DNA of 37,270 nt, from assembly GCA_009784975.1 (NCBI GenBank), contig WQXG01000032.1:1-37270 (forward strand). The letters run 5' to 3'. Of the stretch, positions 4,697-37,270 are shown piece after piece (the first letter of the stretch is position 1; each line of letters begins with the position of its first letter). A program made the position numbers and the translations under genes. Under the pieces are notes generated by a model. The model did no database searches, was not told the DNA's origin, and was given only the letters and a program-made list of their open reading frames with translations. The stretch is from Treponema sp. Lineage in GTDB: Bacteria > Spirochaetota > Spirochaetia > Treponematales > Breznakiellaceae.

Positions 4697-4959
4697 TTTT
4701 ATACCACGAACCGAGGAAGAATTTTCAACCACGAACCACACGAACCAATACGAACAGGGGGTAGATTTGCCAAGACTCTCGCAGAGACGCTGAGACGCGG
4801 AGGACGCGGGGGGAAGAGGGGGGAGAGTTTTTTACCACGAACCGCACGAACCAATACGAACGGTTTTTAAGAATAGCAAACACTTAATTCTTCCGTTCGT
4901 GTGTGTTCGTGTTTTGCCAACGAAGTTTCTAGGCGGTTCGTGGTAAAGATTCTTAAATC
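4697..4959. repeat. Intergenic block of dispersed repeats between convergent genes
   Basis: Two repeat families fill the gap between uvrC and the M48 protease gene. The first, ACCACGAACC-type, is at 4703-4712, 4728-4755 and 4834-4863. The 4728 and 4834 copies agree at all but one of 28 positions. It recurs inverted at 4893-4911 and 4934-4944. The second, the CGCAGAG type, is at 4765-4829. The inverted copies can form a long imperfect hairpin over about 4834-4944 with an inner stem AAGAAT/ATTCTT, so transcripts from both flanking genes could fold and stop here. That terminator role is an inference. The repeat units themselves are visible directly. Confidence 0.75.
4765..4829 (+). repeat. Dispersed intergenic repeat, CGCAGAG family, copy 2
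   Basis: This copy begins TTTGCCAAGACTC, continues through GCAGAGACGC and GAGGACGC units and ends in a GGGAAGAGGGGGG purine tract. It is related to 232-305 in inverted orientation, sharing the order GCCAAGACTC, CGCAGAG, GAGGACGC, GGAAGAGG. It is embedded between two ACCACGAACC-type repeats. Confidence 0.6.
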
Positions 4960-15300: not shown

Positions 15301-17235
15301 GTCTTTCTGATGTTTCGGTGAAAGTTCAAAAAACCTTTCAAGAAATTCTTCTTTATCTTTTAATTCAAAGAGACGTACCGCTTCCCCGTTGCAGTCAAGT
15401 ACCTTGTAGTGTCTGGAAACAATAAAACAGCAGATGGGTATAGTATCCAGCATCATCCTTGCGCGGACACTCTCCTTTTTTGCGGCATCCATTATGGTGT
15501 TTGTCTGGCTCTTGTACAGTTCCTGCATTTTGTTGTTTCTGCCGTACATTACGATTAAAGCAACAAACAATGTTACAAGAATAATGGAGAACATGGTAAG
15601 AAAAGCAGCGCCAACGCGCCACGGACGCTGAACCATTGCAAGCTTTGCGCGGTAATCATAATTTTTTCTTGTCCATTGAACAGCAATAGCCTCTGTATCT
15701 ATCAGTTGCAGCGCCCTGTCAATTATGGAGCATAAAACGGCTTCATTTTTGTTAAATCCAAATGTGGACGCAAATAAACTGTCAAAAACAACATTGGATT
15801 TATAGTCAATTTGTTCACGGAAATTGGTAAGCAAAAGCAGATGATGCCGGCTTGCCATCATTAAATCAATTTTTCCGCTTTCCAACGCGTCTATTGCATC
15901 ATCAAAACTGTCATACTCCATTATACTGCCGTGTTCAGGAAACCAGGTTCTAAACATTGAAGCATAGGCGGTATTATTTATAATACCTACTTTCATGTAA
16001 AATATTTCATTGATATTTACATCCGGGAAATCAAGTTTGGAAAGCAGCGCGTAATTATCGGACAATATCGGGGTACTAGGCCACAGAAAGCGTCCTTCCC
16101 GTTCAGGGATGCGGATTAATTCCGTACCAAAAGCCGCTTCTCCTTCTTCCAGCATTCTAAACATTTGCGCAAGGGAGGTTGAAGTATCGTTTGCAAGGTT
16201 AAAGGTAAGACCTGTCAGTATCTCTATCCTGTCCAATAAATCAAAGGCAATTCCCTGCCATTGATCATCGTATGAATTATAAAAACTTACAGGATAATTA
16301 TTGTATTCCGCAATAAAAGGAATAACAGGATTTGCCTTTATGTAAGAATATTCTTTCTCTGTAAGCTGCAAAAAGAGCTTGTTTCTCATGTATTCCAGGC
16401 GGCCCTGATTGTAAAGCATGGAAAGATAACGAAGAGAACCGTCATCCAGAGCTTTTTCTACAACCGAGATAACGGGAGCAAGATCCGGGTTTCCTGTTGT
16501 TAAAGAAACAGAACTGTAAATTAAAGGATAAAAATCCTTTGCTATTACATCGCCGTAAATGTCAAAGGAAGCTTCTGTCCAGTCATCATTTAAAAAAGCA
16601 TCCGCTTCGCCGCTTTTGAGCATTCGGTAAACTTCATCTGTTGTATCAGCCAATACAATTTCATAAGTGCCGGGTTCAAGAACAGCAGTTACTTTTTCTA
16701 TTGCTGCATCTCCGTCTATAAACGCATAACGCAGCGGCCGCGCGATATATTCAAGCGGGATGCTGTTTTCCAGCCTGAAAGACTTAAGCACATGCGAAGC
16801 GATTGCTGTTGTCATAAAATATGTATTGCGCCGTTCGGGTGTCGCTGTAATGTGGCCGGTAAAATCAACATCAAAACTTGCCAGAGAAGAAAGATATTCA
16901 GGACCCCGCATAATCATTTTAGGTACAAACGGAATATCAAACAGGGAGGTAAGCCATTCGCAGAACATGGCAGACCATCCGCTGATTTCACCTTCCCGGT
17001 TAAAGAAAGCTTCGGAAGAGTACAATACACTGTATACAAAATGACCTGAAGGTCTTTTTAAAACCTGTTCCCTAAGATCATCTATTGCTTTTATATCTTC
17101 AGCCGTAACGCCGGGAATTTCATGAAAAGAAGAGTACGGAGAAACATTTAAAGACTGTACATTTAATTCCGTATCTTTATCACAGCCGGAAAACAGAAGA
17201 ATAATTAAGGCGGCAAAAATTATTCGCTTAGCCAT
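12343..17235 (-). CDS. Hybrid sensor histidine kinase with periplasmic binding-protein sensors, PAS, GAF, REC and Hpt
   Basis: A 1,630-residue signalling protein. The start is ATG 17235, with AAAGGAGA 7 bp upstream. It opens with a lipoprotein-type signal (ALIILLFSGC). Two solute-binding-protein family 3 domains follow (~35-290 and ~290-530), then a membrane helix (~545-565), a PAS domain (~595-705), a GAF domain (~715-885) and a coiled coil. A second PAS contains a Cys cluster (CSFCPC, ~925-1030). Next are HisKA with phospho-acceptor His ~1053 in SHMSHEIRTP, an HATPase with DTGQGM and GAGLGMS, a receiver with Asp ~1361 in VIFMDHMMP, and an Hpt with His ~1492 in TVHGIKSVLAN. The relay is therefore complete within one chain. 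The ligand is probably a small solute such as an amino acid. The gene overlaps the upstream response regulator by 8 bp and the downstream Ig lipoprotein by 4 bp. Confidence 0.93.
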   Translation of the reverse strand: MAKRIIFAALIILLFSGCDKDTELNVQSLNVSPYSSFHEIPGVTAEDIKAIDDLREQVLKRPSGHFVYSVLYSSEAFFNREGEISGWSAMFCEWLTSLFDIPFVPKMIMRGPEYLSSLASFDVDFTGHITATPERRNTYFMTTAIASHVLKSFRLENSIPLEYIARPLRYAFIDGDAAIEKVTAVLEPGTYEIVLADTTDEVYRMLKSGEADAFLNDDWTEASFDIYGDVIAKDFYPLIYSSVSLTTGNPDLAPVISVVEKALDDGSLRYLSMLYNQGRLEYMRNKLFLQLTEKEYSYIKANPVIPFIAEYNNYPVSFYNSYDDQWQGIAFDLLDRIEILTGLTFNLANDTSTSLAQMFRMLEEGEAAFGTELIRIPEREGRFLWPSTPILSDNYALLSKLDFPDVNINEIFYMKVGIINNTAYASMFRTWFPEHGSIMEYDSFDDAIDALESGKIDLMMASRHHLLLLTNFREQIDYKSNVVFDSLFASTFGFNKNEAVLCSIIDRALQLIDTEAIAVQWTRKNYDYRAKLAMVQRPWRVGAAFLTMFSIILVTLFVALIVMYGRNNKMQELYKSQTNTIMDAAKKESVRARMMLDTIPICCFIVSRHYKVLDCNGEAVRLFELKDKEEFLERFFELSPKHQKDGRNSIEASVSYVDKALKEGRCVFEWEHQLLDGTLIPSIVAIDSVVHSDDDAVVAYIRDMREHKQMLGEIDRQNALLEAVNKVSSILLDPNIESFENSLLTSMGIMARAVDVDRVCIWKNHTRDGNLCCSLVHEWVSVFRPPIDATYKKDSLSYNDALPGWKEILSEDKCINRMVKDMSLNEQTQLRAQSIESLFVTPVFLYDKFWGYVGYDDCRNERVFSENEEKNLRSAGRMIANAFIRGEMTQNIIDTKEQLEAAVEEANEANRIKNISINSLESILNSIDSMIYVTDPKTNEILFINNSMKLHYGIEGDCVGLLCYKVFQKDFDSKCSFCPCFKLDKEPEKTVVWEEHSSLTKLIYRNTDRYMRWPNGNTVHIQHSVDMTELITAREQAENSNRSKSIFLSHMSHEIRTPMNAILGIAEIQLQGENIPPDTKEAFGKIYESGDLLLNIINDILDLSKIESGKLELVPVTYDIPSLINDTSQLIRLRYESKPIVFNLELDENTPLELIGDELRIKQVLNNILSNAFKYTDEGSVKFSIYPETIDENNVDIIFCISDTGQGMSKEQLGRLFDEYTRFNLQTNRTTVGAGLGMSITKRLIELMNGTIDVHSELNKGSVFTVRIPQKRLNSAVCGSELTDKLSNFRFQSTTITKKMQFLREYMPYGSVLVVDDVESNIYVTKGMLHPYGLKIDTVSSGFDAIERIKEGNIYDVIFMDHMMPKMNGMEAVKIIRDMGYTHSIVALTANALVGRAEMFLKNGFDGFISKPINSRELNHILNEMVRNKQTPEVVEAARQEQNNKNGSNIKTAEKNMFFIQDAKNAITVMKDFCKEKQFNNEKTDLYTVTVHGIKSVLANMGEIELSAAALELEQCSEEKKYDIILSKTPVFINALEALIEKLKTKKDDVKLSDVSDNDKQYFLEKLLVIKDACAQYDKNTVKETLSELKKKSWPRQINDVLDNISAQILHSAFKNAIALIDNYISGEKV

Positions 17236-18247
17236 TATTAATCTCCTTTGTAAAATCGCCCGAGATTTCTGCAAAAACATCTATCAGAGCCGGATCAAAC
17301 TGAGTGCCTTTGCCGCTTTTAATAATCTCTGCGGCTTCTTCATGAGCGCATGGTTTTTTATACGGTCTTTGGGAAACCAGAGCGTCATAAACATCGGCTA
17401 TTGCCATAATCCGCCCGGGCAATGGAATATCAACGCCTTTCATTCCGTAAGGATAACCTGAGCCGTCCCATCTTTCATGATGATAACCTGCAAACAGCCT
17501 GGCATACTGCAAAAAAGTATCATCGCCGGATTCGGCTATAATATTGTCTATAATTTTAACGCCTTCTGTAGTGTGAGTTTTAATAATTTCAAATTCATCG
17601 GCGGTTAACTTTCCCGGTTTGTTTAAAATAATATCTGTTATGGTGATTTTGCCTATATCATGCATACGCGCGGATGATATAAAAATATCCAAATCCAGAT
17701 GGGACATCTCGTTTGCGTACACGCCGCGCTCAATCATTTTATTAATTAAAAGACCTACATAACCTGTGGTTCTTTCGATATGCATATCTGTCATTTTGTC
17801 ACGATGTTCTACCATGTTTGCCAAAACAAAAACAATGCCGTTTTTCAGCCTTTTTAATCTTGCTGTTCTTCCCTGTATTATATCTTCGATATCAAGATGG
17901 GTTTTTATACGGTTAAGCAAAACAGGGCTGGAAAACGGCTTGGTAATAAAATCTATAGCTCCCATCTGAAACCCAAGGGATTCAGTAGAAAAATCATTGC
18001 GGCTTGTAAGAAAAACAACAGGGATGTCCAAATATCCTTTATTGGATTTAAGAAGTTTCAGCGCCTTAAACCCGTCCATCTCGGGCATGAGTATATCCAG
18101 CAAAATCAGATCCGGTTTTACTTCTTTTAACAGCTCAAACATACTGGAAGCAGACGGCAGAGTATAAACACGGTAAAATTTGGATAAAGCTTCGTCCGCT
18201 GACAACAGATTTACATTGTTATCATCAACAACAAAGATTGTTTTCAA
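17228..18247 (-). CDS. HD-GYP response regulator, predicted c-di-GMP phosphodiesterase
   Basis: A 339-residue RpfG-type protein. The N-terminal receiver has the acidic pair D8-D9, phospho-acceptor D51 (LILLDILMPEMDG) and the Lys in ITKPF. The C-terminal HD-GYP domain has HD at 196-197 (MHDIGKI) and HHERWDGSGYP at 256-266, all catalytic residues present, so hydrolysis of cyclic di-GMP is expected. It starts with TTG and an AGAGG about 9 bp upstream, and no in-frame ATG nearby would preserve the receiver. Its last codons overlap the kinase gene start. It is the obvious output partner of the hybrid kinase, with the kinase Hpt passing phosphate to this receiver, an inference from gene order. Confidence 0.93.
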   Translation of the reverse strand: MKTIFVVDDNNVNLLSADEALSKFYRVYTLPSASSMFELLKEVKPDLILLDILMPEMDGFKALKLLKSNKGYLDIPVVFLTSRNDFSTESLGFQMGAIDFITKPFSSPVLLNRIKTHLDIEDIIQGRTARLKRLKNGIVFVLANMVEHRDKMTDMHIERTTGYVGLLINKMIERGVYANEMSHLDLDIFISSARMHDIGKITITDIILNKPGKLTADEFEIIKTHTTEGVKIIDNIIAESGDDTFLQYARLFAGYHHERWDGSGYPYGMKGVDIPLPGRIMAIADVYDALVSQRPYKKPCAHEEAAEIIKSGKGTQFDPALIDVFAEISGDFTKEINNG

Positions 18248-23984: not shown

Positions 23985-24011
23985 ATTATAACTATAACAT
24001 ATAATAGTATT

Positions 24012-24491
24012 TTATGTATAAAATATCACCTTTATTTTTACCGAAATTTCATCGTTTCCCAGTATTCTGGAAATAACATTGATTCTTTTTTTTGTTTTTA
24101 TTGCAAGATTGTCTGCTTTTAGGAGAAAAGGCGGCGTTATTGTATATATCTGTTCCATGCTGTTTGTGCGCAGCTTGGCATTTCCCGCTGTCATGTTTAC
24201 AAGTTCGCACAGGGTATCTTCTATATCATTTTCTGTTATTTCATTTATTGGAATACCTGTCATAAAAGAACCAATAATTCTAAGGTCTTTTTCTTTGGCA
24301 GAAATAAAAAGCATCCCGTGATTTTTGCCGTTAGATGCCCCCCCAAGGCTCATTACGGCTGTATTTTCGTCAAAAGCGCTGTCCGCCTCTTCTGATAATA
24401 CATTAAATGAAAGCCCTGCCATTTTGGAAACAACATCTGTCAGAGCGTCAATAAAAATATAACTTAATTTTTCTGTTGTAAATTCACTCAT
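24012..24491 (-). CDS. cheX: CheX chemotaxis phosphatase
   Basis: A 159-residue CheC/CheX-family phosphatase that removes phosphate from CheY-P. The active-site ExxN pair is present as E96 and N99 in ELVNMTAGN, in the helix that CheX uses. Only one such motif exists, as in CheX and unlike CheC, which has two. The start chosen is ATG 24491, overlapping the cheY stop by one base (TAATG), with AAGGGG upstream; the longer frame to 24518 runs into cheY. CheX is the usual CheY phosphatase of spirochaetes such as Borrelia and Treponema. Confidence 0.9.
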   Translation of the reverse strand: MSEFTTEKLSYIFIDALTDVVSKMAGLSFNVLSEEADSAFDENTAVMSLGGASNGKNHGMLFISAKEKDLRIIGSFMTGIPINEITENDIEDTLCELVNMTAGNAKLRTNSMEQIYTITPPFLLKADNLAIKTKKRINVISRILGNDEISVKIKVIFYT

Positions 24492-24871
24492 TAATAATCC
24501 CCTTCTCTGCCTATGCACTCCAATATTTTGGTTTCCAGTTCCTGACCTGTAAACGGCTTTGTTAAATAATTCGCAGCCCCCGCGCGTACAGCGGCAACAA
24601 TGCTGCTCTTCTGCCCTTCTGTCGTAACCATCATTACAGGAATATCTTTAAATTGCTCATTATTCTTAATTTCTACAAGCACATCATACCCGCTTTTTTC
24701 AGGCATATTCCAGTCCAAAAGAACAAGGTCTATTTCTTCATACATCTTTGAAAGCATTTCAAGAGCCTCAATTCCGTCCTGCGCTTCTACAGTTTCCATT
24801 TGAAGCACATCGACAGTTGCCTTAATGATTTTTCTCATTACAGACGAATCGTCAACTACAAGTAATCTCAT
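24491..24871 (-). CDS. cheY: Chemotaxis response regulator CheY
   Basis: A single-domain receiver of 126 residues. The phosphorylation site is intact: D7-D8, phospho-acceptor D53 in LVLLDWNMPEKSG, the switch Thr in MMVTTEG and Lys 105 in LTKPFTG. It should carry the signal from CheA to the flagellar switch. Its ATG overlaps the cheR stop (ATGA) and its stop overlaps cheX, so levels of the three proteins are likely coupled. Confidence 0.95.
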   Translation of the reverse strand: MRLLVVDDSSVMRKIIKATVDVLQMETVEAQDGIEALEMLSKMYEEIDLVLLDWNMPEKSGYDVLVEIKNNEQFKDIPVMMVTTEGQKSSIVAAVRAGAANYLTKPFTGQELETKILECIGREGDY

Positions 24872-25767
24872 TTTTTAACCCCTTCTCTTTTTGTATAATA
24901 TGTTAAATTTCCGTAATAATCTGCGTCAAATTTATTTTCGAACAGGTCATATAGGGCATAATTTCCTGTAAATAATACCCCGTTATCACACAATGAATCG
25001 CGTATTTTTTCTACAATCTGGATTTTTACAGCCTCCGGAAAATATATTAAAACATACCTGCAGAAAATAACGTCGAACAACCCAAATTCCTTAAAACTAT
25101 CAAGCAGGTTAAAATGCATAAATTTTACAGCATTGCTGATTTTTGGGTCAATTGTCCAAACTGATCCGTTTCTGATAAAATATTTATCTTTATATTCTTC
25201 GTTTAAGCCGCGCATAATACTTATCTTATCATATCTGCCTTTTTTGGCTGTTTCAAGGACCTGACTGGAAATATCCGTTGCAAAAAATTCAAAATTATCA
25301 AAGTTTACGCCTTTTACGCTGTTTTTGCTTAAATAATTGTCTATACACATGGCTGTAGAATAGATTTCCTGTCCCGTTGAAGCCGCCGCGCTCCAAATTC
25401 TTACCCGTTTTTTTCTTCCAGAGGTTATTTCGCCTATAAGATATGGAAGAATGGTTTCTTCCAGCACCTTCCATGGAGCCTCATCACGAAACCATTTTGT
25501 TTCGTTTGTAGTTATGGAATTGATTATTTTTTGATTAAACAAAGGGTCATTTTTTTTAATAATATAACTGTATAACTCTTCAAAAGAATTTACATCCAAA
25601 TCAACAAGATATTTGGAAAGCCTTGTTTCGAATATATATGTTTTTTCCGCCGGAATATAAATCCCGCACTTTTTAACAATATAATCGCTTAAAAGCGAAT
25701 ATTCTTTTTCATTTATGGAAGCAAGAGATAAATTGTCTTTTGAATATTTTAAACCTGAGTGTAACAT
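24868..25767 (-). CDS. cheR: Chemotaxis methyltransferase CheR
   Basis: A 299-residue S-adenosylmethionine-dependent enzyme that methylates glutamates of chemoreceptors. Visible motifs: TTNETKWFRDE at the end of the N-terminal domain, RIWSAAASTGQEIYSTAM for the cofactor loop (the common CGCSTGEEPYS form is changed), FFATDISSQVLETA, and FDVIFCRYVLIYF. The ATG at 25767 lies 19 bp inside cheB with AGGGAGA about 10 bp upstream. No pentapeptide tether is apparent on the receptors here, so it probably docks directly to the receptor body. Confidence 0.94.
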   Translation of the reverse strand: MLHSGLKYSKDNLSLASINEKEYSLLSDYIVKKCGIYIPAEKTYIFETRLSKYLVDLDVNSFEELYSYIIKKNDPLFNQKIINSITTNETKWFRDEAPWKVLEETILPYLIGEITSGRKKRVRIWSAAASTGQEIYSTAMCIDNYLSKNSVKGVNFDNFEFFATDISSQVLETAKKGRYDKISIMRGLNEEYKDKYFIRNGSVWTIDPKISNAVKFMHFNLLDSFKEFGLFDVIFCRYVLIYFPEAVKIQIVEKIRDSLCDNGVLFTGNYALYDLFENKFDADYYGNLTYYTKREGVKK

Positions 25768-26783
25768 ATACTTTCTATCTCCCTGTAAATTTTATCCAAA
25801 TCCAAAATTTTGTCTGCCAGTCCGCTTTCCACAGCGCATCTTGGCATTCCGTACACAACACATGTCTCTTCGCTTTGCGCAATACAATAACAATCACGTT
25901 TGGCTTTAAGGCTTAAAAGCCCCTTTCTGCCGTCACTTCCCATTCCTGTTAAAATAACAGCTAAAACTCCTCTACCGCTAAACGATTTTGCCACAGATTC
26001 AAAAAGAACATCCGCGGCTGGACGAAGCCCTCCGATTGGAGGAGAGTCATCCAGTTTAATATTGTTTTTGGAATTAAGTTTCATGTGCATTCCGCCTGGC
26101 GCCAAATAAACATTCCCTGCTTTTACAGTTTCCCTGTCTTGCGCGATTTTAACTTTTAATCCGGACTTATTATCCAAATGCACTGCCAATGTTTCCGTAA
26201 AATATGACGGTATATGCTGAACAATTAAAATAGGCAACGGAAAATCAGAGCGCAAATTTGATAAAATTCTGTTTAAAGCCAAAGGACCGCCCGTAGAAGC
26301 TGCAATAAGAACAATTTCAGGGCATATAATATTTTTTACAGGCGGTTTTTTGGGAATTATTTCATTTTCTTCGCGGTTTTTTTGCATTGTTTTTGTAATC
26401 AGGTAATTCATTTTTTGTTTAATAATATCCAGATTATCAGCATAGCTGTCATATATGGGCTTTGTCATACATTCAGTTGCGCCTTTTGACAAAACATCCT
26501 GGAACAGATCGCTGTTTGCAGCCGAAGGTCTTGCTATTGCCAGAATATAGGCAAGCGGGTTTTTCATTAAAACAATATTAATTATTTCTGTTAAACCAGG
26601 ATCTGAAATTTCCGCATCTATAACTATAATATTATAATTTTTATTATTAATAAGACCTAAGACTTCATCGCCGTCTGAAACGCAGGATACTGATATGTTT
26701 TTATCAGCTTCCGTTACAGCACGGGTAAACATTTTTGTGTATACCGATGATTTGTCGGCGATTAAAACCCTGATTTTTTCCAT
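25749..26783 (-). CDS. cheB: Chemotaxis methylesterase/deamidase CheB
   Basis: A 344-residue receiver-plus-esterase protein. The C-terminal catalytic domain has the triad S163 (AASTGGPLAL), H190 (IVQHIPSYFTE) and D284 (LTGMGSDGRKG), so it should demethylate receptors. The receiver keeps D56 (IIVIDAEISD) and K108 (CMTKPI), but the usual acidic pair reads D10-K11 instead of Asp-Asp. Activation by phosphate may therefore be altered. The gene starts 2 bp after the chemoreceptor and overlaps cheR by 19 bp. Confidence 0.93.
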   Translation of the reverse strand: MEKIRVLIADKSSVYTKMFTRAVTEADKNISVSCVSDGDEVLGLINNKNYNIIVIDAEISDPGLTEIINIVLMKNPLAYILAIARPSAANSDLFQDVLSKGATECMTKPIYDSYADNLDIIKQKMNYLITKTMQKNREENEIIPKKPPVKNIICPEIVLIAASTGGPLALNRILSNLRSDFPLPILIVQHIPSYFTETLAVHLDNKSGLKVKIAQDRETVKAGNVYLAPGGMHMKLNSKNNIKLDDSPPIGGLRPAADVLFESVAKSFSGRGVLAVILTGMGSDGRKGLLSLKAKRDCYCIAQSEETCVVYGMPRCAVESGLADKILDLDKIYREIESICYTQV

Positions 26784-26785
26784 AC

Positions 26786-28792
26786 TCAGCCTATAATGAA
26801 ATTTTTGACGGAATCTTCCATCTCGCTTGCGATTTTAAGTATTGTTTCGCTGGCTTCTTTTGTGGAACTTGCGCTGTGGTTTACCTCTCCTGCTTCTCCG
26901 TTTATAAGCTGAAGATTTTTGGAAATATCAACAAGACCCAGCGCCATTTCCTTTGCCGCTCTGTTTATTTCGCTTATATTGTTTGAAGCGCGTTCGGAAT
27001 TCATCGCTATTTCCTGCGTCCCCACAACAAGTTCTGCCGTAGATTTTGCTATCTCATTAACGCCTTTGGTAGATTCAATAACTGTTTTTGTTACAGACTG
27101 CGCGTTTTCAGAAACGCTTATTATTTCTGAATTAATTTCGCTCATTCTCTGCGCGGCTGTAGCCGATTCCGAGGCAATCTGATCGCTTCTGTCCCTGGAC
27201 TGTGTTGTTTCCCTTGCGAATGAATTTATATACTCTGTCATATCGTTAATAATCGACGTAATTTCCGATACGGCTCCGACAGCCTCAGGCATATTTTTCT
27301 GCATATTTTCTATCTGCTCGGCAATTTCATCTGTGGCATCTGCTGTTTGTTTTGCAAGTTCTTTAACTTCATTTGCAACTATCATAAAACTCTTGCCCGC
27401 TTCTCCCGCTCCTGCGGCTTCTATCGCGGCATTTAATGCAAGCATATTTGTCTGATCTGCAATATCGCTTATAACATTAACAATCTTTCCTATTTGCTTG
27501 CTTGCAGCCTCCAGCCTTCGTATTATATCATTTGTATTTTTGGCTTTTCCATCCGCGTCCAGCATTTTATTTTTCGCATTTACGCTGTTAACGCTTATCA
27601 TAATAATGGATTTGTTAATTTCTTCTACGCTCTTTGCAACATTGTTAAATACATTTGAAACAAGTTTAACAGAACTTGATGCATTTACAATGCTTTTCTG
27701 GATACTGTCTACAAGAGCGCTTGACTGCTCTACCCTCATGCTGGTCTCTTCTGCCGCTGCCGCAACATTGCTTATTGTAGAGTTAATTTCCTCTATGGAA
27801 GACGCCATTGCGCTGATATGCGAGCTTGCCGTTGAAAGTGAGTTTGTCGATTGTGTCATTCCCGCAGAAAATTCCTCTGTTACCGTACTTACAACGTTTG
27901 TCTTTTCGCTGAGTTCCTTGCTGTTTGTTTCCATTTGCGAAGATACAGACAAAAGGTTCTTTGCGGATTCGCGCATTTGTTGCGCAGATTCCCTGATGCC
28001 GTTTATCGTATGCCGGTTAAATTCCATAAGATGGTTGAATGCATTGTAAAACTGTCCGAATTCATCACCGTATTCATCGGGGAATTTAACGGTAAAATCC
28101 CCTCCTGCAACAATTTTTACCAACTCTGTGCCAATCATTATAGGTTTGCTGGCTGATATGGAAAAATATATTCCAAAAAATACAATTATAAAAAGCGCGA
28201 TAAATGATATGATAATAAGCCGTATTACGGCAGCTTCGGATTTATGTTTGTTACCCAATGTAATATTTTTTCCCAGATGTATCCTTAATAAGTTTAATTC
28301 AGTTAAAATATCCAAACATCTGTCGGAAATCGGCGACATAACCTCAATAATAAATTCACCGGGATCATCTCCGTTGTTTAGTCTATCCCTAAAAATATGC
28401 ATATATATGTCCCATTTTTCAAATAATTCTGCAAATTCGTTATACAATACGCGAGCTTGAGGAAGTTCTATAGTATCTGAAAATATTTGCATATTTTCCT
28501 TTATCAATACCATACTGGCAAAAAATTCTTCTATTATATCGTTTCGCTTTTGAACATCTCTTTCTAAAATAACGTCACGGCCTTTAAGCTTTATATTTCC
28601 CATTACAACTCTTGCCTGCAATATACGCTCAAGAGGGTCCAATACCTTAATGATATTTTCTTCGCTTATAGATACAGTAGCATTCATATCTACAATAGAC
28701 AAAAGTGAAGTGCAAAGCATGATAACTGCAACAAATAAAAACGCAAACAGCAGCTTTGTCCTTATTTTTAATCCTTTTATAATTTCAAACAT
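26786..28792 (-). CDS. Membrane methyl-accepting chemotaxis protein
   Basis: A 668-residue transmembrane chemoreceptor. Membrane helix 1 is at ~13-33, followed by a periplasmic helical sensor of about 155 residues (~34-188) that looks like a four-helix bundle. Membrane helix 2 is at ~189-211, then a HAMP domain (~212-262). The cytoplasmic signalling hairpin has the conserved tip [20 protein letters not shown], where CheA and CheW bind. No C-terminal CheR-binding pentapeptide is seen. The ligand is unknown. It lies inside the che operon, overlapping cheW by 8 bp, which suggests it is the receptor dedicated to this CheA. Confidence 0.95.
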
Positions 28793-29291
28793 TTTCTATT
28801 CCTTCGTTTAAATTTGCTTTCTCTGCATAGAGAGCCGGTTTTTCGCCGTTATTTCTATATTTATTTATTATAGATTCAATATTTATAATTCTGTAAAGCC
28901 TGTTTTCATGTTCAGTAATCCCAGAAATGCAAAAATTATCCTCTGTACCTGTTGTCATGCAAAGAGGACGTATTTTATTATCATCCAAATCGATCAGATT
29001 ACCGGGCTTATCTATAAATAAACCCAGCTGATCTTCACTGCCGGCAAGCGTTTTAAAAACAACAGCTTTAACTTCCCGCGAGTCATATTCCCTGTTTCTT
29101 CTTTCCTTATGCCCTAAAAGCTGATAAAGGCTTATTATGGTAATAACCCTTCCTTTTAAATTTGCTATGCCGATTATTTCACCGGGAGCTGTAGGAACCG
29201 GTGTTACAATCATTTTTCGCGTAACTTTTTGCACCAGATCAACATCTACGGCAAAATATTCTTTATTCACAAGAAAGCTAAAACATCTCAT
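28785..29291 (-). CDS. cheW: Chemotaxis coupling protein CheW
   Basis: A 168-residue CheW-type adaptor that bridges receptors and CheA. The N-terminal strand [21 protein letters not shown], the turn [21 protein letters not shown] and the strand [14 protein letters not shown] follow the CheW fold. A short tail (~20 residues) extends beyond the domain. It overlaps cheA by 4 bp and the receptor gene by 8 bp. Confidence 0.92.
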
Positions 29292-31864
29292 AAATTCTTC
29301 CCCTTCATTGTTATTTTTCTTTTTGTTTTATCATTTTCCACATGCTCTGCAATTGCTCCCGGATTTATAAAAATGAGTATCTTTTCATTATAAATCCCTG
29401 TCCCAAAAACAAAATCACTGTAGATATGTTTATTGTCAAGTAAAAATTCTTCTTCGGCTTTATCTATCACATTCCTTACAAGAAGTCCTGTGGGAGATAC
29501 GCTGTTTTTTAAAGTTAATACATAGAGTTTTTCTTCGGTATAATCCCGTTTTACAACAGGCGCGTAATCTTCCGGCCTTACAATGCGCCAGGTACAGCCG
29601 GAAATAATTACAAAAAGTCCATTGTTTATTTCCTGAATATTCCTGTTTTTAATGCTTTCTATTCTTAAAATATCGGCAGTTTCTACGGCAAAGTATTCTG
29701 TGCCTGAACATTTAAAAATTATCACCTGTTTTACATTTTCCTCATTTACGTATTTTTTTTCTTCCGGTTCATATTGCAGCTCATCTTCTTTTTCTTCCAA
29801 ACCCATAAACCGCATAATCCCCAATGTATCCAGAATAGCAACTGCCTTTCCGCTGCCTAAAACCGTTACACATAAATAACAGGGGCAGTTTTGCAGATAT
29901 ACCGGTACATTTTTTACAAGGATCTGTTCTGTTTCTACAGCATCGTCAATTAAAAGCGCAAAGCTTTTTCCTTCTGCCCTAAGCACAAGGCATTTTATTA
30001 CATCCATGGCTTTGCATTTCTCCAATACCGCAGAAGCGGAAAGAGGCTGTTTGCCTTTTGCTTTGGCTTCAATCCCGTTCATGGTAATAACGGGGATGAT
30101 TCTCCCGTTAAAACTTAAAACCAGTGATTTATTTACCTTTTCTATTCTTTGCTGTTTTGAATTTTCATTGTTATTGATCCGCACTATATGTTCTACATTC
30201 AGTTCCGGCACCGCATAGGAAATAGAATCAATATTTACAATAAGAGTATTTATAACAGAGAGGGTAAGCGGCATTTTTAACCGCACTGTTGTTCCAATAC
30301 CCGGATCGGATTCTATTTCTATAAAACCGCCTGATTTTTCTATATTGTTTTTTACAATATCCATTCCAACGCCGCGCCCGGAAAGATTTGTTACCTGTTT
30401 AGCGGTGGAAATACCCGGCTTAAAAATCAAATTGTATATTTCGCTTTTTGTCATTGACGCAAGCGTTTCTTCTGTTTCAATTCCCTTTTCAATTGCCTTG
30501 TTTTTAAGAGCTTCAATATCAATACCGCCGCCGTCATCTGTAACTTCAATGATGGCAGAACTGTCACGCATATATGCATTAAGAATGATAGAACCTTTTT
30601 GCATTTTTCCGCGATCCTGCCGCTCCTTTGCGCTCTCCATGCCGTGGTCAGCCGAATTTTTTACAAGCTGCGTAATGGGGTCAACAAGCGCTTCCAGCAA
30701 ATATTTATCCAGGGTTACATCGTCTCTTAATATTTTTACAGCAATATCTTTATTCAGGGCTTTTGCCGTATCACGTATCATTCTTGGGAATTTGTTAAAA
30801 ATAACGCTTATAGGCTGCATTCTTGTGAACATAATTCTTTCATGTATTTCGCTTGTTAGATGGTTTATGTCATGTAAAAGCGGCGTTAGACCCAGAATTG
30901 ATCTTTTATGCTCTGATACAACAGAGAAAAGCTGATTTCGCACCAAAACCATTTCGTTGGCTAAATCCATTAATTTGTTTATATCTGTTATATCAAGGCG
31001 TATTGAAAGATTATTCCCCTGTAAAGCCGCAAGTTTATTGTTTTTACCGGTGTCCGGATTTATAACACCGGATTTTACGGATTTTACAACGCCTTGCAAT
31101 TGATGTATATGCTTTTTTTCTGTTCCAATTGCAATAGACAAAAGTTCCAAATCCAAAATGCTTGTAACAAGAATTTCCAGCTCGCATGTATCATGTTCTT
31201 TAAGCGTCTTTGTCAGCTCTCCTGTAAAAACAGCAGTATTGGAATTTTTAATTACCTTACCTGCGGCAATTGCCTGGACAATAAAACAGACAGATAAAAT
31301 ATTATCTATCATTCCGCCGGGGTTTTTATAAAATTTTCCAAGACTTCTGTTAAAGCTTATATTTATATAGTATATTTTATGCCCGTGTCTTGACATATTT
31401 TTTATAGTTTCCTCTGTTGCGCTTTCGTTTAAATTAAACGGAACATTTACTTCCTGCTTGATTTCTTCGTTATAATTGTTATTTGCTGTTAAAGTATATG
31501 TTTTTAATTCATCAATAATTTCATCTATGGAAATTGTTTCATCATTCTGTAAATTTTCAATTAAATCTTTCAGGCAATCCACGCATTTTAGGACAAGGTC
31601 TGCAATATCATTGTCAATGTTTAAAGTTTTTTCCATGATCTGCGACAATACGCCTTCTAGTTCATGAGTAACTGCCACAATTTTATCAAGCGATAAAAAA
31701 CTCGCTGTCCCCTTAATGCTATGCGCGGCGCGGAAAACAGAGCTCATCAATTTACTGTCGTTTGCAAACATGGAAACATCCAGGAATGCCGTTTCTATTG
31801 TTTCCATGTGTATTCTGGCTTCCGCTTCAAAATCACCAATAAAAAGATTTGCGTCAATTTTCAT
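29288..31864 (-). CDS. cheA: Chemotaxis histidine kinase CheA with two CheW-like domains
   Basis: An 858-residue kinase. The P1 (Hpt) domain has H48 in FRAAHSIKGTASF. A P2-like region (~135-275) is divergent. The dimerisation helices (LMDLANEMVLVRNQLF) are followed by the P4 ATPase with HGMESAKERQD, DDGGGID and GRGVGMDIVK, so catalytic parts are intact. The P5 CheW-like domain (~545-690) is followed, after an acidic linker, by a second CheW-like domain (~715-845: IIFKCSGTEYFAVETADILRI, then GTGIYNEKILIFINPGAI). Standard CheA has only one. The gene overlaps the double-receiver gene by 4 bp and cheW by 4 bp. Confidence 0.95.
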   Translation of the reverse strand: MKIDANLFIGDFEAEARIHMETIETAFLDVSMFANDSKLMSSVFRAAHSIKGTASFLSLDKIVAVTHELEGVLSQIMEKTLNIDNDIADLVLKCVDCLKDLIENLQNDETISIDEIIDELKTYTLTANNNYNEEIKQEVNVPFNLNESATEETIKNMSRHGHKIYYINISFNRSLGKFYKNPGGMIDNILSVCFIVQAIAAGKVIKNSNTAVFTGELTKTLKEHDTCELEILVTSILDLELLSIAIGTEKKHIHQLQGVVKSVKSGVINPDTGKNNKLAALQGNNLSIRLDITDINKLMDLANEMVLVRNQLFSVVSEHKRSILGLTPLLHDINHLTSEIHERIMFTRMQPISVIFNKFPRMIRDTAKALNKDIAVKILRDDVTLDKYLLEALVDPITQLVKNSADHGMESAKERQDRGKMQKGSIILNAYMRDSSAIIEVTDDGGGIDIEALKNKAIEKGIETEETLASMTKSEIYNLIFKPGISTAKQVTNLSGRGVGMDIVKNNIEKSGGFIEIESDPGIGTTVRLKMPLTLSVINTLIVNIDSISYAVPELNVEHIVRINNNENSKQQRIEKVNKSLVLSFNGRIIPVITMNGIEAKAKGKQPLSASAVLEKCKAMDVIKCLVLRAEGKSFALLIDDAVETEQILVKNVPVYLQNCPCYLCVTVLGSGKAVAILDTLGIMRFMGLEEKEDELQYEPEEKKYVNEENVKQVIIFKCSGTEYFAVETADILRIESIKNRNIQEINNGLFVIISGCTWRIVRPEDYAPVVKRDYTEEKLYVLTLKNSVSPTGLLVRNVIDKAEEEFLLDNKHIYSDFVFGTGIYNEKILIFINPGAIAEHVENDKTKRKITMKGKNL

Positions 31865-32706
31865 GATTCACATCCTGTTTTGCAATGTTCAATTGCACAA
31901 GCCAGTATTTTTTCGCTGCTAACAGGTTTTTCTATATAGCCGTTCATTCCGGCTTCCATGCATAATTTTATCTCTTTTTCTTCTACATCCGCGGTTGCGG
32001 CAATAATTGGAATTTCACGCGCATTTTCGCAGGAGAGGCGCCTTATAGCCTTTGTTGCTTCCAGGCCGTTCATAACAGGCATTTGAACATCCATTAAAAT
32101 AAGAGCGTATAAACTGGGGGATTTTTCGAATTTTTCAACAGCTTCTTTCCCGTTAACAGCAAATTCTAAAGTTAAACCGTCAATCTCACTGAGCATGGCT
32201 GCAACTATATCTCTGTTAATTTCTACATCTTCTGCAACCAAAATTGTTTTGTTATGTAAAATCTTTTCATAACTGTTTGCGTCTGTTTTACGTTTAAAGT
32301 GATTTTTTTCATATTCACTTGCAGTAATTCTGAGTCCTATACGATCGGCTAACGCTTTGGCAGTACCTTTTCTTCTGGTTGTATAATCAACAGCGCCGAT
32401 TTTAAAAGCCGCCGTTTCATCTTCGTCATTTCCTTTTTCTGCCAAAAATTTTATGGGAATATTTTTACTTTTTGCAGAATCAAACACTTCGGTAAATACG
32501 GAAAACGCAATCTCACGATTTTGACAAATATAGATAATAATGGCTGATATTTCATACATTTCCATTGCGGAAAGCGCCGCCGCGCCCGATGCGGCTATGC
32601 TAATATCAAAATGCCCCATTAACTCTGCTTTAATTTCTGCTAACACACGCGGCTCCCCGCTAATAACGAGTATATGTTTTTTTTCCTTGTCATTAATCAA
32701 TGCCAC
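31861..32706 (-). CDS. Double-receiver protein with one degenerate receiver
   Basis: A 281-residue protein from a proposed GTG at 32706. The longer frame to 32913 would lie inside mgtE and its N-terminus resembles no protein family, so it is dismissed. The first receiver-like half (~10-120) has lost the site: ISGE replaces the acidic pair and IYICQN sits where the phospho-Asp should be. The second half (~150-275) is intact, with E159-D160, D206 in LILMDVQMPVMNG and K260 in IEKPV. No output domain is present, so it may be a phosphate sink, a second CheA target or a connector. The start lacks a clear ribosome binding site, and a TATAAT-like box lies at 32719-32724. It overlaps cheA (ATGA). Confidence 0.8.
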   Translation of the reverse strand: MALINDKEKKHILVISGEPRVLAEIKAELMGHFDISIAASGAAALSAMEMYEISAIIIYICQNREIAFSVFTEVFDSAKSKNIPIKFLAEKGNDEDETAAFKIGAVDYTTRRKGTAKALADRIGLRITASEYEKNHFKRKTDANSYEKILHNKTILVAEDVEINRDIVAAMLSEIDGLTLEFAVNGKEAVEKFEKSPSLYALILMDVQMPVMNGLEATKAIRRLSCENAREIPIIAATADVEEKEIKLCMEAGMNGYIEKPVSSEKILACAIEHCKTGCES

Positions 32707-32747
32707 TAATTTAATTCTATTATAAATATAGAGAAAAAACAACCTTT

Positions 32748-34091
32748 CTATAAACCCAAAATTAGCCTTGCAAACGAAAAATACATTATAAGCGATGTTG
32801 CATCCGCAAGGGTTGTTATAACAGGAGCAGCCATCATTGCAGGATCTATTCCTACACGTTTTGCAAGCATCGGTAACAGCCCGCCTATAGCTTTCGCGAC
32901 AAGAACTGTACAAATAAGAGCAAGAGAAACAGTTAAAGATAAAAGTATATTTCTGCCGTTCATTAAATAAATCCGTCCAAAATTAACCGCCGCAAGCGCA
33001 ATTCCGCATAAAAGAGCTACGCGTATTTCTTTCCATAACACACGAAGGAAATCCCTTAACCGTATATCTCCCAGCGCCATACCGCGGATAATAAGAGTGG
33101 AAGACTGGCAGCCTGAATTACCTCCGGTATTCATAAGCATTGGGATAAATGCTACAAGAAGAGGCATAAGCGCGAGACTTTCTTCAAAACCTTCGATAAT
33201 TGTTGCCGTAATGGTAGCAGAAAGCATCAGAATTAAAAGCCAAAGAAACCGGTTTTTTGCCAATTTAAAAACACCGGATCTCATATAAGGATCATCAGAA
33301 GGATTTAACGCGCTCATCTTTTCAATATCTTCTGTTTCTTCTGCAACGATAACATCCATGATGTCGTCAACGGTAATAATACCGACAAGCCTCTGTTCCT
33401 TATCAACTACAGGCATGGCAAGCAAACCGTATTTTTTAAATTGATCCGCAACCGCTTCCCTGTCATCTGTTGTATGAGCAAAAAAAGGAGTTGAGTCCAT
33501 AATATTGCCGATTCTCTCCTGGGGGCTCGAGAGCAAAAGTGTTCTTGCGGAAACTTCCCCTAAAAGCAGCCTGTCATTGCTTATCACATAACATATATTG
33601 ATAGTTTCCTTGTTGGAACCTGTTCTGCGTATCGTTTCAAAAGCCTGCTGCACAGACTCTTCTTCGCGCAAATTGATAAATTCGGCAGTCATAATACTGC
33701 CCGCTGAATCATCGGGGTACTTAAGGAATTGATTTATTATTTTTCTTTTTTCATTGGGGACATTCTGCAATACGCGCTTTACCACTGTGGCAGGCATTTC
33801 TTCGATAAAGTCTACAGCGTCGTCCACGAACAATTTGTTTATAATTTCGCCTATTTCCGTATCGTTAAGGGCTTCAATTACGGATTGCTGGAATTCGATG
33901 TTCATGCACGCGAAAACTTCTGATGCTATAGCCTTGGGCAAAACCCTGAACATCTGCAGGAGTTTGTCTTTTTCCAGATATTCCAGTATTTCCGCAATGT
34001 CCACTGTATTCATATCAGAAAGCAAAATCTTCAGCTTCGATAAGTCAATATCACCGTCCATAATCAGCAATAAAATTTCTTCTTTGTTCAT
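32748..34091 (-). CDS. mgtE: Magnesium transporter MgtE
   Basis: A 447-residue MgtE channel of typical length. The N-terminal superhelical domain (~1-130: VDIAEILEYLEKDKLLQMFRVL, then DDAVDFIEEMP), a pair of CBS domains (~135-255: GSIMTAEFI, VGIITVDDIMDVI) and five membrane helices (~285-447) are all visible. The pore signatures are MLMNTGGNSGCQSSTLIIRG and GIDPAMMAAPVITTLADATS, the latter with the Mg-binding Asp. The CBS and N domains close the pore when cytoplasmic Mg is high. A GAAGGG is upstream of the ATG. It lies between the hydrogenase-like receptor gene and the chemotaxis genes, spaced 43 and 41 bp, so it is probably co-transcribed. Confidence 0.95.
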   Translation of the reverse strand: MNKEEILLLIMDGDIDLSKLKILLSDMNTVDIAEILEYLEKDKLLQMFRVLPKAIASEVFACMNIEFQQSVIEALNDTEIGEIINKLFVDDAVDFIEEMPATVVKRVLQNVPNEKRKIINQFLKYPDDSAGSIMTAEFINLREEESVQQAFETIRRTGSNKETINICYVISNDRLLLGEVSARTLLLSSPQERIGNIMDSTPFFAHTTDDREAVADQFKKYGLLAMPVVDKEQRLVGIITVDDIMDVIVAEETEDIEKMSALNPSDDPYMRSGVFKLAKNRFLWLLILMLSATITATIIEGFEESLALMPLLVAFIPMLMNTGGNSGCQSSTLIIRGMALGDIRLRDFLRVLWKEIRVALLCGIALAAVNFGRIYLMNGRNILLSLTVSLALICTVLVAKAIGGLLPMLAKRVGIDPAMMAAPVITTLADATSLIMYFSFARLILGL

Positions 34092-34134: not shown

Positions 34135-36225
34135 TTATAGTTCTGCAAGCTTCGCCTCTGCTATCCTTGCCAAATCGTTCATATCATCAAGGAGCTTACT
34201 GGTCTTGGAGAGCATATCGGCATAACCGCCCTTTACTTCAACGCTGCCTTCCTTTATGTCCTTAAGCGAGGATGTTATACCTGTGCTTTTCTGCGACATT
34301 TCGCCAAGTACAGAAATCATTTCTGTCATGGTTTTTGCAAAATCGTGTATCTCCGAAGACATTGAATTAATCAGAATATTGGTATCATTGGAGCGCTTGG
34401 CAGTAGTATTAATGCCGGAAATAATGTTAGACAAAGTCTGGGAAATATTGCGGGAGTTTGCCCTTGTGCTTTCTGAAAGCTTGCGGATTTCATCTGCTAC
34501 TACGGCAAAACCTCTACCTGCCTCTCCCGCATGAGCGGCTTCTATGGCTGCATTCATTGCCAAAAGATTGGTGTTAGCCGCGATTGTAGAAATGATCTTG
34601 ATCGCCTGCGCAATTCCGTCAACAGACTGAGAAATGCTCTGCACAGATTGAATCGTTTCCTGCATGGACTGCTGGCCTCTTGCAGTATCTTCTATAAGCG
34701 ACTGTATCGCTTCCTGTTTCTGCCGTGAACGATCTGATGTGCTTCTTAAAGAAGTTGCCATAGCATCGGTGTTATCTGAAGATTCTTTTATCGACCCCAG
34801 ATACATATCCATGCGGTTATCCATTGTTCTTACCACACTGTTAATACCGCCGATTATATCAAGAGCAACGTCGATATGTTCATGAAGCTGCACATTCAGC
34901 TCTTCCATTACCTTTTTTTCTTTTTCTATCATATTAAAATTAAAATGGAGGCAATTTTCCGGTTTATTAAGTTTATTAAAAATTGCACCAGCCATTGCTT
35001 TGCATGATCCGTAACCGCAGGCAGTACAATTATACATATCCTTTGCTGTAGTTTTTTTCATTATTTTATAAACCCCGGTTAACTGCGCGTCTGTAGGATG
35101 CACAACCGTATTGTTGCCGGATAAATCAAGGTAGCTGCGGTCATAGAGTCCTTTTTTCCAGAATTTATTTAATGTCTTATGATATTTTTTATATACCCAT
35201 TCTCCTCCGCGTGGTTTATGATATTCTTCCAGTTTCGCGCTGCGTTCCTTGATTGGACTTTCAAGCACAATTTCCGGCAGCTTGCTGTTTCCGGTACCGG
35301 GTCCGCCGTTACAGCCTTTCTCGCAATTAAGACAGTCAATAAGCAGAGGTATTTTTATATTGGTATTTAAAAGTTTAGAGACATCCGAAAGATACGGATA
35401 GATTGCATGGAGCCCTTCGGATTTATGGGTACGCCGCCTGAAACCGGGAATAAAACGCTCAACGGTATCCAATAAACCTCCGGGTGAAGAAAAACGAACC
35501 GCGCGCTCCGCATGTTCGCTGGCATACTCTACTTTGGGAAACGTATCAATATCAATATTTTTTTCTTTAAAATAATCTTTTAGAGCAAGCATGGTGACAT
35601 TATAATCACCAAGACCTGTCTCATCAAATTCCCTGCGTTTTGCGGCGCATGGAGAAATTACAACCATTTTATGATTCTTGTATTTTGGATAATATTCATG
35701 GATCATCTTGATGGTATGCAGCATGGGACTGTGCGCGGGCGCCAGGTAAGGTAACAAATTGGGGCAGTTTATTTCGATATAACTGACAATAGCGGGACAA
35801 GGCTGAGCAATAACCATACGCGGATCTTTTTCTTTTATAAAATTCAGATAAGAAACAACGGTAAGTTCCGCGCCGAAACTTACGTCAAAAATTGCCTCTA
35901 TACCCAGCGACTTAAGCCAGCCGTTAAAATTAAGGAATTTTTCGGGAAAAACAGAGGCGATAGCAGGGGCTACAACAGCGACCATTTTTTCTCTGTTTTT
36001 TAATCCTTCAAAAAAACGGGGCGTATCATCAATAATGCTGCGGGCATCATGAGTACAACAGATAATACAGTTTCCGCATCCTATACATAAATCAGGATTA
36101 ATGTTTAATTTGTCACCCGAACCGTCCATGCAGTATTTTACAGGACAAGCGGCAATACAGGCATAACAGTTAATACATTTGTCTAAATCAATCTTAATAA
36201 CCGGGGTAAGCGCCATTTTACTCAT
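34135..36225 (-). CDS. Soluble chemoreceptor with [FeFe]-hydrogenase-like sensory domain
   Basis: A 696-residue fusion with no membrane helix. Two [4Fe-4S] ferredoxin motifs are at C17-C20-C23-C27 and C47-C50-C53-C57. An [FeFe]-hydrogenase H-domain follows (~80-315) with all four H-cluster cysteines: C143 (QPCPA), C193 ([10 protein letters not shown], with the conserved Lys and Glu), C301 and C305 (NCEKGC). The Cys that carries protons in catalytic enzymes (first Cys of TSCCP) is Pro. Another four-Cys motif, C400-C403-C408-C425 (CTACGYGSC), precedes an MCP signalling domain (~440-690) with tip [20 protein letters not shown]. There is no HAMP or PAS. The expected role is sensing H2 or redox state and controlling CheA. 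Family knowledge supports sensory, not catalytic, use. A ribosome binding site (GGAG) is 8 bp upstream. Confidence 0.93.
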
Positions 36226-36256: not shown

Positions 36257-36285
36257 ATTATAACAAGTTTAAAAGGTTATGTAAA
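36257..36285 (-). promoter_or_regulatory. Sigma-70-type promoter for the receptor-mgtE-che operon
   Basis: On the minus strand TTTACA (36280-36285), exactly 17 bp, then a perfect TATAAT (36257-36262). Transcription would start near 36250, giving a leader of about 25 nt with the GGAG ribosome binding site. No comparable promoter was found between the following genes, which supports one long operon down to 22737. Confidence 0.65.
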
Positions 36286-36711
36286 TATGTTTTAATAAAA
36301 ATTAAGTCCCCGGCGCCGAATGAAACGCTGCCGCTGCGGGAGCCGGAGAATGGTCTTCTTGCGATTTTGAGACGCAAGCGGTAAATATCCCAATCCTTGC
36401 GCTTAAAGATAGTTGGTTTCATTTTTTATTTTTTACAATCAAAAGAAATCGGGAAGGCGGGGCAGCCTGCGTGCGCAGAAAAACTCCTCAGGAGCCTGCT
36501 TACGAACCCGCAAGCGGTTTCTTCAGCAGAGAACTTCGGAAGATGTTTTTCTGCGCCCGCAGTCTGCCCCGCCTTCCCGTTGCTTGGTATAATTGAAAAA
36601 ACAGTAACAGGTACCAATTTTAATAAAATTGAAAATCAAGTTAGCCGCTACAAATCCTAAGCCGTTTGTAATGTTTTTTGTCACACTTGGCTGGTTGATT
36701 TGAGCGAGTTT
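36286..36711. other. Gene-free region with structured repeats
   Basis: No convincing coding sequence. The region holds GC-rich palindromic fragments near 36308-36347 (CGGCGCCG at 36311-36318, CCGCTGCGG), a hairpin CTTGCG/CGCAAG at 36358-36378, the large inverted repeat at 36450-36579 and a weak TACAAA/TTTGTA hairpin near 36650. Small open frames on both strands run through the inverted repeat and look spurious. Confidence 0.65.
36450..36579. repeat. 130-bp inverted repeat with cloverleaf-like centre
   Basis: The arms 36450-36484 and 36545-36579 are 35 bp each and complementary at 33 positions. The 60-bp centre can form three small hairpins: CTCCT/AGGAG at 36484-36494; CTGCT/AGCAG enclosing a GAACCCGC/GCGGTTTC stem (~36496-36529); and a CTTCGGAAG element near 36534. 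On RNA this would be a strong long stem with a branched head; on DNA it could extrude as a cruciform. It carries no gene. Its GC content stands out from the flanking AT-rich DNA, suggesting a small inserted element. Confidence 0.75.
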
Positions 36712-37270
36712 TTATTTACCTTCATATTCCTTTAGTATTTCTTCCGGTGATTTTCCGCTTTTTAACAGTTCAATTATTCTTCTTTCACCCTGTCGTTTTG
36801 CATGGACAATTCTGCTTTGCATATCAAGTTCGTATTTTAATTTGCTTTCCTGATGATAGTATTCGATTTCGTCTTTGGTAAAAGTTACCAGTGCTTCGCT
36901 TGCCATAGCAATTCCCTCCTGACATTCTATTATCTGGTTTTATTTCGCACGTTTTGACTTATCTGTCAAATACTGAAAAAATACAGCCCAATGTTCAGCA
37001 GAAGTCATGGCTTTTACCGGTTTTTCGATCACTTTGTCCAATTTAGAAAGTTCAACAGTAATTATACGGCTTTTTCCATTTAACGAGATGTTATGCTCTG
37101 GGTCATAATATTCAAATGTATGAAATACGACATCATCCGCAAAAAAGCGTTTTTTTGCCAGTATTGCTATCTGATAGGACTCTTTAAGATCGTTAAAAGT
37201 CTTATCTGTTCCTTTAATGTCCTGCCCAATAAATAGTTTGCTGGCATGAAACTCTAGCCGAACCGGTTCA
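36712..37270 (-). pseudogene. Rpn/PD-(D/E)XK family transposase-nuclease, 3' part, interrupted by a stop
   Basis: The minus strand from the right edge reads in one frame into the end of an Rpn-type (PDDEXK_2) protein. The segment before the stop includes RLEFHASKLFIGQDIKG, KKRFFADDVVFHTFEYYD and SAEHWAVFFQYLTDKSKRAK. A TAA at 36940-36942 interrupts it. The frame then continues without shift as NQIIECQEGIAMASEALVTF and on to the normal C-terminal KLLKSG-like end at 36712. The whole order matches family members, so one codon has become a stop. The 64-residue frame from ATG 36906 is this tail, and the AGGAGGG before it is coding sequence (Gln-Glu-Gly) rather than a designed start signal. The catalytic N-terminal part lies outside the window. 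A sequencing error is the main alternative. Confidence 0.75.

Follow-up and report, generated by a model that had tools for sequence, protein, structure and literature searches.

The hydMCP gene and its product

The window, by which we mean the whole 37,270-nt stretch of Treponema sp. DNA that was analyzed, carries a gene, designated hydMCP, that is followed on the same strand by a magnesium transporter gene and a block of che genes. Coordinates of these features, and of the loci from other genomes and contigs with which they were compared, are given in Table 1.

Table 1. Features of the window and of comparison loci
Feature	Position	Strand	Remarks
Promoter-like TTTACA-17-TATAAT	36257..36285	(-)	11/12 match, ~30 bases ahead of the hydMCP ATG
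hydMCP	34135..36225	(-)	696 aa from ATG; two Fer4 clusters, H-domain, four-Cys FeS domain, MCP hairpin 426-695
mgtE, magnesium transporter	32748..34091	(-)	between hydMCP and the che block
Response regulator	31861..32707	(-)	single Pfam receiver at 224-338 in the longest ORF; start of the G177-matching block
cheA	29288..31864	(-)	858 aa; close type in own genus only, among ten genomes searched
cheW	28785..29291	(-)	Pfam
MCP2, membrane receptor within the neighboring che block	26786..28792	(-)	tip unlike that of hydMCP
cheB	25749..26783	(-)	Pfam
cheR	24868..25767	(-)	Pfam
cheY-like receiver	24491..24871	(-)	Pfam
cheX	24012..24518	(-)	Pfam CheX on stretch 24012-24488
Kinase-linked sensory hydrogenase	L094:7820-11227 (contig C39)		1136 aa; PAS, HisKA, HATPase, receiver, Hpt
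hydMCP between maturase-like genes	L072:7568-13539, L078:7996-14156		hydE-, hydG-, hydF-like
hydMCP-headed che operons	L077:1519-10303, L090:4919-13571, L091:8340-17068		receptor class different from the window's

Pfam matches along hydMCP comprised Fer4_7 (residues 16-61; 35.7 bits against a cut-off of 27), Fe_hyd_lg_C (PF02906; residues 80-309; 109.6 against 22.1), a four-Cys FeS domain of [4Fe-4S] type (PF04060; residues 398-426; 27.9 against 23) and, as a chemotaxis-type output, MCPsignal (residues 512-671; 108.5 against 34.6). An earlier note on this DNA had described a single soluble chain in which two ferredoxin clusters and an H-cluster domain are combined with another four-Cys cluster and an MCP signaling hairpin, and the domain search that it proposed (Fer4, Fe_hyd_lg_C, FeS, MCPsignal) recovered all of them above the Pfam cut-offs. 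Its statement that the protein has no HAMP, PAS or membrane segment agreed with our analysis as well: neither HAMP nor PAS was among the Pfam families matched at E <= 0.001, and no membrane helix was predicted, the highest 19-residue hydropathy mean being 1.36. Scores with the NCBIfam hydrogenase models were far below their cut-offs (e.g., 139 against 450 bits for TIGR04105), as would be expected of a divergent sensory branch.

By hand count, ~51 of 296 genomes of the phylum encode the full architecture: 49 gave a single long match, and G104 and G045 were added on the strength of their protein sequences. As the architecture recurs in this way and the proteins align, a chance pile-up of domains or a frameshift fusion was ruled out. 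The proteins were aligned in two sets, one of 32 rows from spirochaetes and one of 62, the latter consisting of the window's protein and the 61 stop-free ranges of 62 tried from 80 loci (the best 80 of 564). In the AlphaFold model obtained with the 62 rows (mean pLDDT, 86.8; pTM, 0.68), two helices, 426-565 and 567-695, form an antiparallel hairpin. The earlier note had also called for a structure prediction of the junction at residues 400-450, and in the model the first hairpin helix begins at 426, directly after the last FeS ligand, C425. Only [FeFe]-hydrogenases were found by Foldseek among the 50 of 79 matches listed at E 0.001 or better, the best of those listed being 8zqd (E 3.3e-17). 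Judged by its two hairpin helices and by the likeness of its tip to CheA/CheW-binding tips, hydMCP is predicted to be a cytoplasmic chemoreceptor.

The promoter-like site ahead of the gene came from a scan whose overall yield did not exceed chance (21 sites found against 15.9 expected, sd 4.0). The DNA match of the hydMCP region to L112 extends to 36303, past this site.

Predicted metal sites and maturase genes

The Fer4 cysteines of hydMCP are C17, C20, C23, and C27, and C47, C50, C53, and C57; the first four are only nearly invariant in the 32-row alignment because row L061 lacks the N-terminus. Cysteines C143, C193, C301, and C305 occupy the H-cluster ligand positions and, like C400, C403, C408, and C425 of the FeS domain, were invariant in both the 32 rows and the 62 rows (from the best 80 of 564 loci). 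Equally invariant in the two sets was an extra cysteine, C298, two residues ahead of the helix ligand pair of the H-domain, and K196 corresponds to the lysine of the PC..K motif. In an alignment to the solved [FeFe]-hydrogenases 7qv7 and 7p5h, P142 took the place of the proton-transfer Cys, and two Met positions were occupied by S191 and L299; among 40 compared proteins, position 142 was Pro in all except for one Thr and one Ser. Replacement of the proton-transfer Cys and of the Met residues is reported for sensory hydrogenases, in which these three positions vary and about 10% have Pro at the proton-transfer position (PMC10055695). Assignment of hydMCP as a prototypical catalytic (group A) [FeFe]-hydrogenase was rejected, the proton-transfer Cys being replaced by P142 and a separate catalytic-type gene being present on contig C25. 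Together with hydMCP and the kinase-linked gene on contig C39, this makes three H-domain genes in the genome.

HydF and HydG matches above cut-off were found in the same genome, encoded by adjacent genes on contig C2, and a 338-aa gene beside them was taken for HydE from its place and best-hit behavior. A flagellar FliG_C match was also present. With the domains, the intact ligand residues and these genes in place, the earlier note's proposal of a hydrogenase-type module joined directly to an MCP output was upheld. In 2 of 40 loci (G236 and G294), hydMCP is itself flanked by hydE- and hydG/hydF-like genes. Fifty module-bearing genomes were searched for HydG, 49 of them with hydMCP and one, G293, with the kinase form; 33 gave a match, compared with 6 of 30 other genomes picked by hand (Fisher p 8e-5, uncorrected for kinship). 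HydF was likewise matched in 33 of the 50. HydG was without a match in 17 of the 50 module-bearing genomes and both HydF and HydG in 16, two counts that speak against the H2-sensing interpretation preferred below.

These 16 genomes bear on the possibility that hydMCP is a redox receptor that has no diiron subsite and, with [4Fe-4S] clusters only, senses the redox state of ferredoxin or of O2/NO and not H2. Nine of the 16 encode no H-domain protein above 200 bits; the ligands and K196 are unchanged in 11 proteins from ten HydG-lacking genomes; and C298, invariant in hydMCP proteins, is Leu in the kinase-linked module of the same genome, all of which would fit such a receptor. We nonetheless consider it unlikely, given the HydF and HydG of the genome itself, the two loci in which maturase genes flank hydMCP, and the seven of the 16 genomes that also carry a catalytic-type H-domain gene of 290 bits or more. 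Because of these seven, missing maturase matches cannot simply mean that there is no H-cluster. Either the maturases were missed or are different in the 16 genomes, or the diiron site is not always needed by the family. When the 40 proteins were searched for a cluster-pocket difference tied to the presence of HydG, the pocket residues of the 29 from HydG-positive genomes did not differ from those of the 11 from the ten HydG-negative genomes; a single column in the N-terminal part, Y218, stood out in this comparison.

Receptor tip and the neighboring che block

The genome encodes 12 MCPs and three CheA proteins. The hydMCP hairpin aligned without gaps to nine ordinary MCPs of the genome and, over 80 tip residues, was 49-55% identical to them, as against 36% to MCP2 and 36% to the paralog of MCP2 on contig C16. 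In a tree of receptor halves that included eight of the nine ordinary MCPs and carries a long-branch warning, hydMCP fell on their side (95/84) and MCP2 apart. The part after the tip is 129 residues long in hydMCP and 170 in seven of the nine ordinary receptors; the hydMCP coil is thus shorter, by 41 residues, which weighs against a shared array, though not decisively. When methylation sites were scored by consensus, hydMCP had no strict and one relaxed site, and a strict site occurred in only one of the nine ordinary MCPs. The window's CheA is 62-64% identical to the CheA on C16 and 36% identical to that on C4. We infer that the C4 CheA is the ordinary flagellar one, because comparable matches were obtained in the other nine genomes searched.

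The earlier note had placed hydMCP at the head of a complete che operon. The gene does lie upstream of the che genes and on their strand, but mgtE intervenes. Between hydMCP and mgtE there are 43 bases, in which a simple scan found no terminator-like site, and a transcript shared by both genes and the che block is still conceivable, which would weigh against a link to the general array. Upstream of hydMCP on the same strand is a weak PDDEXK_2 nuclease/transposase-family fragment at the contig end, below the Pfam cut-off; the interval 36450-37269 contains this fragment and a 35-nt inverted repeat with a 60-nt loop.

Conservation of the linkage was examined in two overlapping sets of relatives' loci, one of 40 and one of 80 (the best 80 of 564), in which L053 and L124, and L054 and L158, seem to be the same contigs. 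Many loci are cut, with 5 kb on both sides in only 27 of the 40 and 28 of the 80. A homolog of the window's CheA was found near hydMCP in three of the 40 loci (L077, L090, L091), in another operon type, and in none of the 80; restricted to loci with 5 kb on both sides, the counts were 2 of 27 and 0 of 28. No mgtE was found in either set, and the window's type of che block stood beside no other hydMCP in these neighborhoods. The nearest relatives among the best 80 of 564 loci, L111 (83%) and L112 (77%), have different hydMCP neighbors. The nearest named MAGs are presumably of termite-gut origin, judging by their isolate names. Positions 24009-32707 of the window match contig C9 of the congener G177 with 78% DNA identity; the match ends before mgtE, and the hydMCP of G177 lies on a different contig from its che block, between recR-like and polA-like genes by ORF reading. 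The window's CheA type was absent from eight of nine other hydMCP genomes tested. A paralogous block on contig C16 (L096:6440-13907) consists of a response regulator (61% identical), a CheA (62-64%), and an MCP2 (71%), with an ordinary MCP next to it; no cheW, cheB, cheR, or hydMCP match was found in this block.

With the che block elsewhere in G177, other neighbors in the relatives and no hydMCP in the C16 block, we take the linkage to be recent or accidental. It is possible, if somewhat doubtful, that the hydMCP-mgtE-che junction has no functional meaning and arose in assembly or by a rearrangement in the very recent past: both junctions were unique among the loci examined (40 and the best 80 of 564), and the transposase-family fragment and the inverted repeat lie upstream, but the gaps between the genes are small and clean, and the reading frames are intact. 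Such an origin would concern the neighborhood and may be compatible with the explanation that we favor. The earlier note had seen in the che operon a concrete, dedicated H2-taxis pathway; in it, the downstream genes would supply the CheA, CheW, CheB, and CheR partners of hydMCP. This reading was not supported. The common strand and the short, terminator-free gap would suit such a pathway, as would the three other genomes in which a hydMCP heads a che operon, but these three differ from the window in both operon and receptor class. Moreover, the linkage is absent from other loci of the branch, including the nearest relatives, and the hydMCP tip is unlike that of MCP2. On linkage, CheA distribution, tip and tree, we dropped the pathway as the leading reading and regard it as improbable.

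We consider it probable, although by no means assured, that hydMCP is a soluble sensor of [FeFe]-hydrogenase type for H2 or ferredoxin redox state, set on a chemoreceptor output and reporting to the general array. HydE, HydF, and HydG would load the H-domain, which would then equilibrate with H2 and, by way of the two N-terminal ferredoxin clusters, with the ferredoxin pool of the cell. A change in the H-domain would be transmitted by mechanical means, via the FeS domain, to the coiled coil and shift CheA activity, presumably setting the direction of taxis; the placement of the helix in the model leads us to favor mechanical coupling over coupling by electron hops. The array that hydMCP would join is most likely the general one of the genome's ordinary CheA, not a private route through the adjacent che block.

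Related sensors and other outputs of the module

[FeFe]-hydrogenase group C2 is listed in Table 1 of HydDB as 'Chemotactic (putative)', with its role given as undetermined (PMC5037454). By its features, and going by the wording of that table, hydMCP is a predicted member of group C2: both have an H-domain with sensory-type residues, an MCP output and a predicted role in H2 sensing, and none of the features tested separates hydMCP from the group as the table describes it (PMC5037454). The remark in the earlier note that the class is not wholly new is therefore borne out, as group C2 already covers such proteins. Group C2 was found once among 179 Hydrogenedentota genomes (PMC11406978), and in one survey the C2 candidates were dropped at validation checks (PMC9431212). 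Thermotoga maritima HydS (group C) resembles hydMCP in its replaced proton-transfer Cys and Met and its C-terminal [4Fe-4S] domain, but it has a PAS domain and, in the description cited, no MCP hairpin (PMC10055695). A filing of hydMCP with this type was rejected, because PAS was not matched and the helix begins at 426 after the cluster. Thermoanaerobacter mathranii HydS (group D) likewise has Fer4 clusters, an H-domain and a C-terminal four-Cys cluster; it is described as not being reduced by H2, with a change in secondary structure proposed as the signal (PMC13104023). Unlike hydMCP, it has no output domain in the same chain. Within the genome itself, the C39 protein has the same module (hhalign probability 100; 31% identity over 413 columns) and differs in its kinase-type output and in the Leu at the C298 position. 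H-domain sensor proteins were reportedly found in termite-gut treponemes by Ballor et al. in 2012, with chemotaxis suggested. A literature search, which left subscription papers mostly outside its reach, found no report of H2 taxis through such a receptor.

The module also occurs with other outputs in other spirochaetes. In L077, L090, and L091, the gene order is hydMCP, cheB, cheR, receiver-SpoIIE, cheW, a second CheW-like gene without a Pfam match, and cheA (by Pfam for L077 and L091, and by BLAST for L090). In G023 (L220:9696-17897), the first gene of an otherwise identical order encodes a membrane 4HB-HAMP receptor, and the hairpin of this receptor shares 50% identity with that of L091 over 285 residues. 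Receptor halves of the G023 and L091 type join in trees (99/94, with a long-branch warning), and the hydrogenase halves of the L077/L090/L091 type fall within the hydMCP family in a tree whose bootstrap had not settled. The CheA of this operon type stands out in five of 392 genomes; in the fifth, G014, the contig ends ahead of the operon head. Histidine-kinase outputs carry the module in L230 and L231, with L231 nesting next to a hydMCP (100/98; bootstrap likewise not settled). A more speculative reading, to which we give little credence, would make the module a plug-in sensor exchanged by spirochaetes among chemosensory systems. Joined to an ordinary-class hairpin it would steer swimming. In the three genomes whose cheB-cheR-SpoIIE-cheW-cheA operon is headed by a single receptor, it would have taken over from that receptor's membrane sensor, and the output would be phosphatase signaling gated by H2 and not taxis. 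Where HydEFG is missing, the pocket, in which C298 is an invariant fifth cysteine, would be a pure iron-sulfur redox switch.

Bacterial H2 or redox taxis becomes directly testable with this family, which is widespread, is encoded by one gene, keeps its ligands intact, has known maturases and shows a defined helix junction. The comparison of receptor halves predicts which CheA hydMCP would use, and the genomes without maturase matches offer a natural test of whether signaling needs the diiron site.

Elsewhere in the window, where neither an Rfam match nor a tRNA was found, a hybrid kinase of 1645 aa (12343-17280), which combines solute-binding, PAS, GAF, kinase, and receiver domains, adjoins a receiver-HD protein (17228-18247). 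The segment 10706-12346 encodes a protein with bacterial Ig-like repeats, in which a tandem repeat (11028-11138) encodes Thr-Pro-rich units. A 114-base dispersed repeat at 4834-4947 has an 84% identical copy on contig C16 of the same genome.
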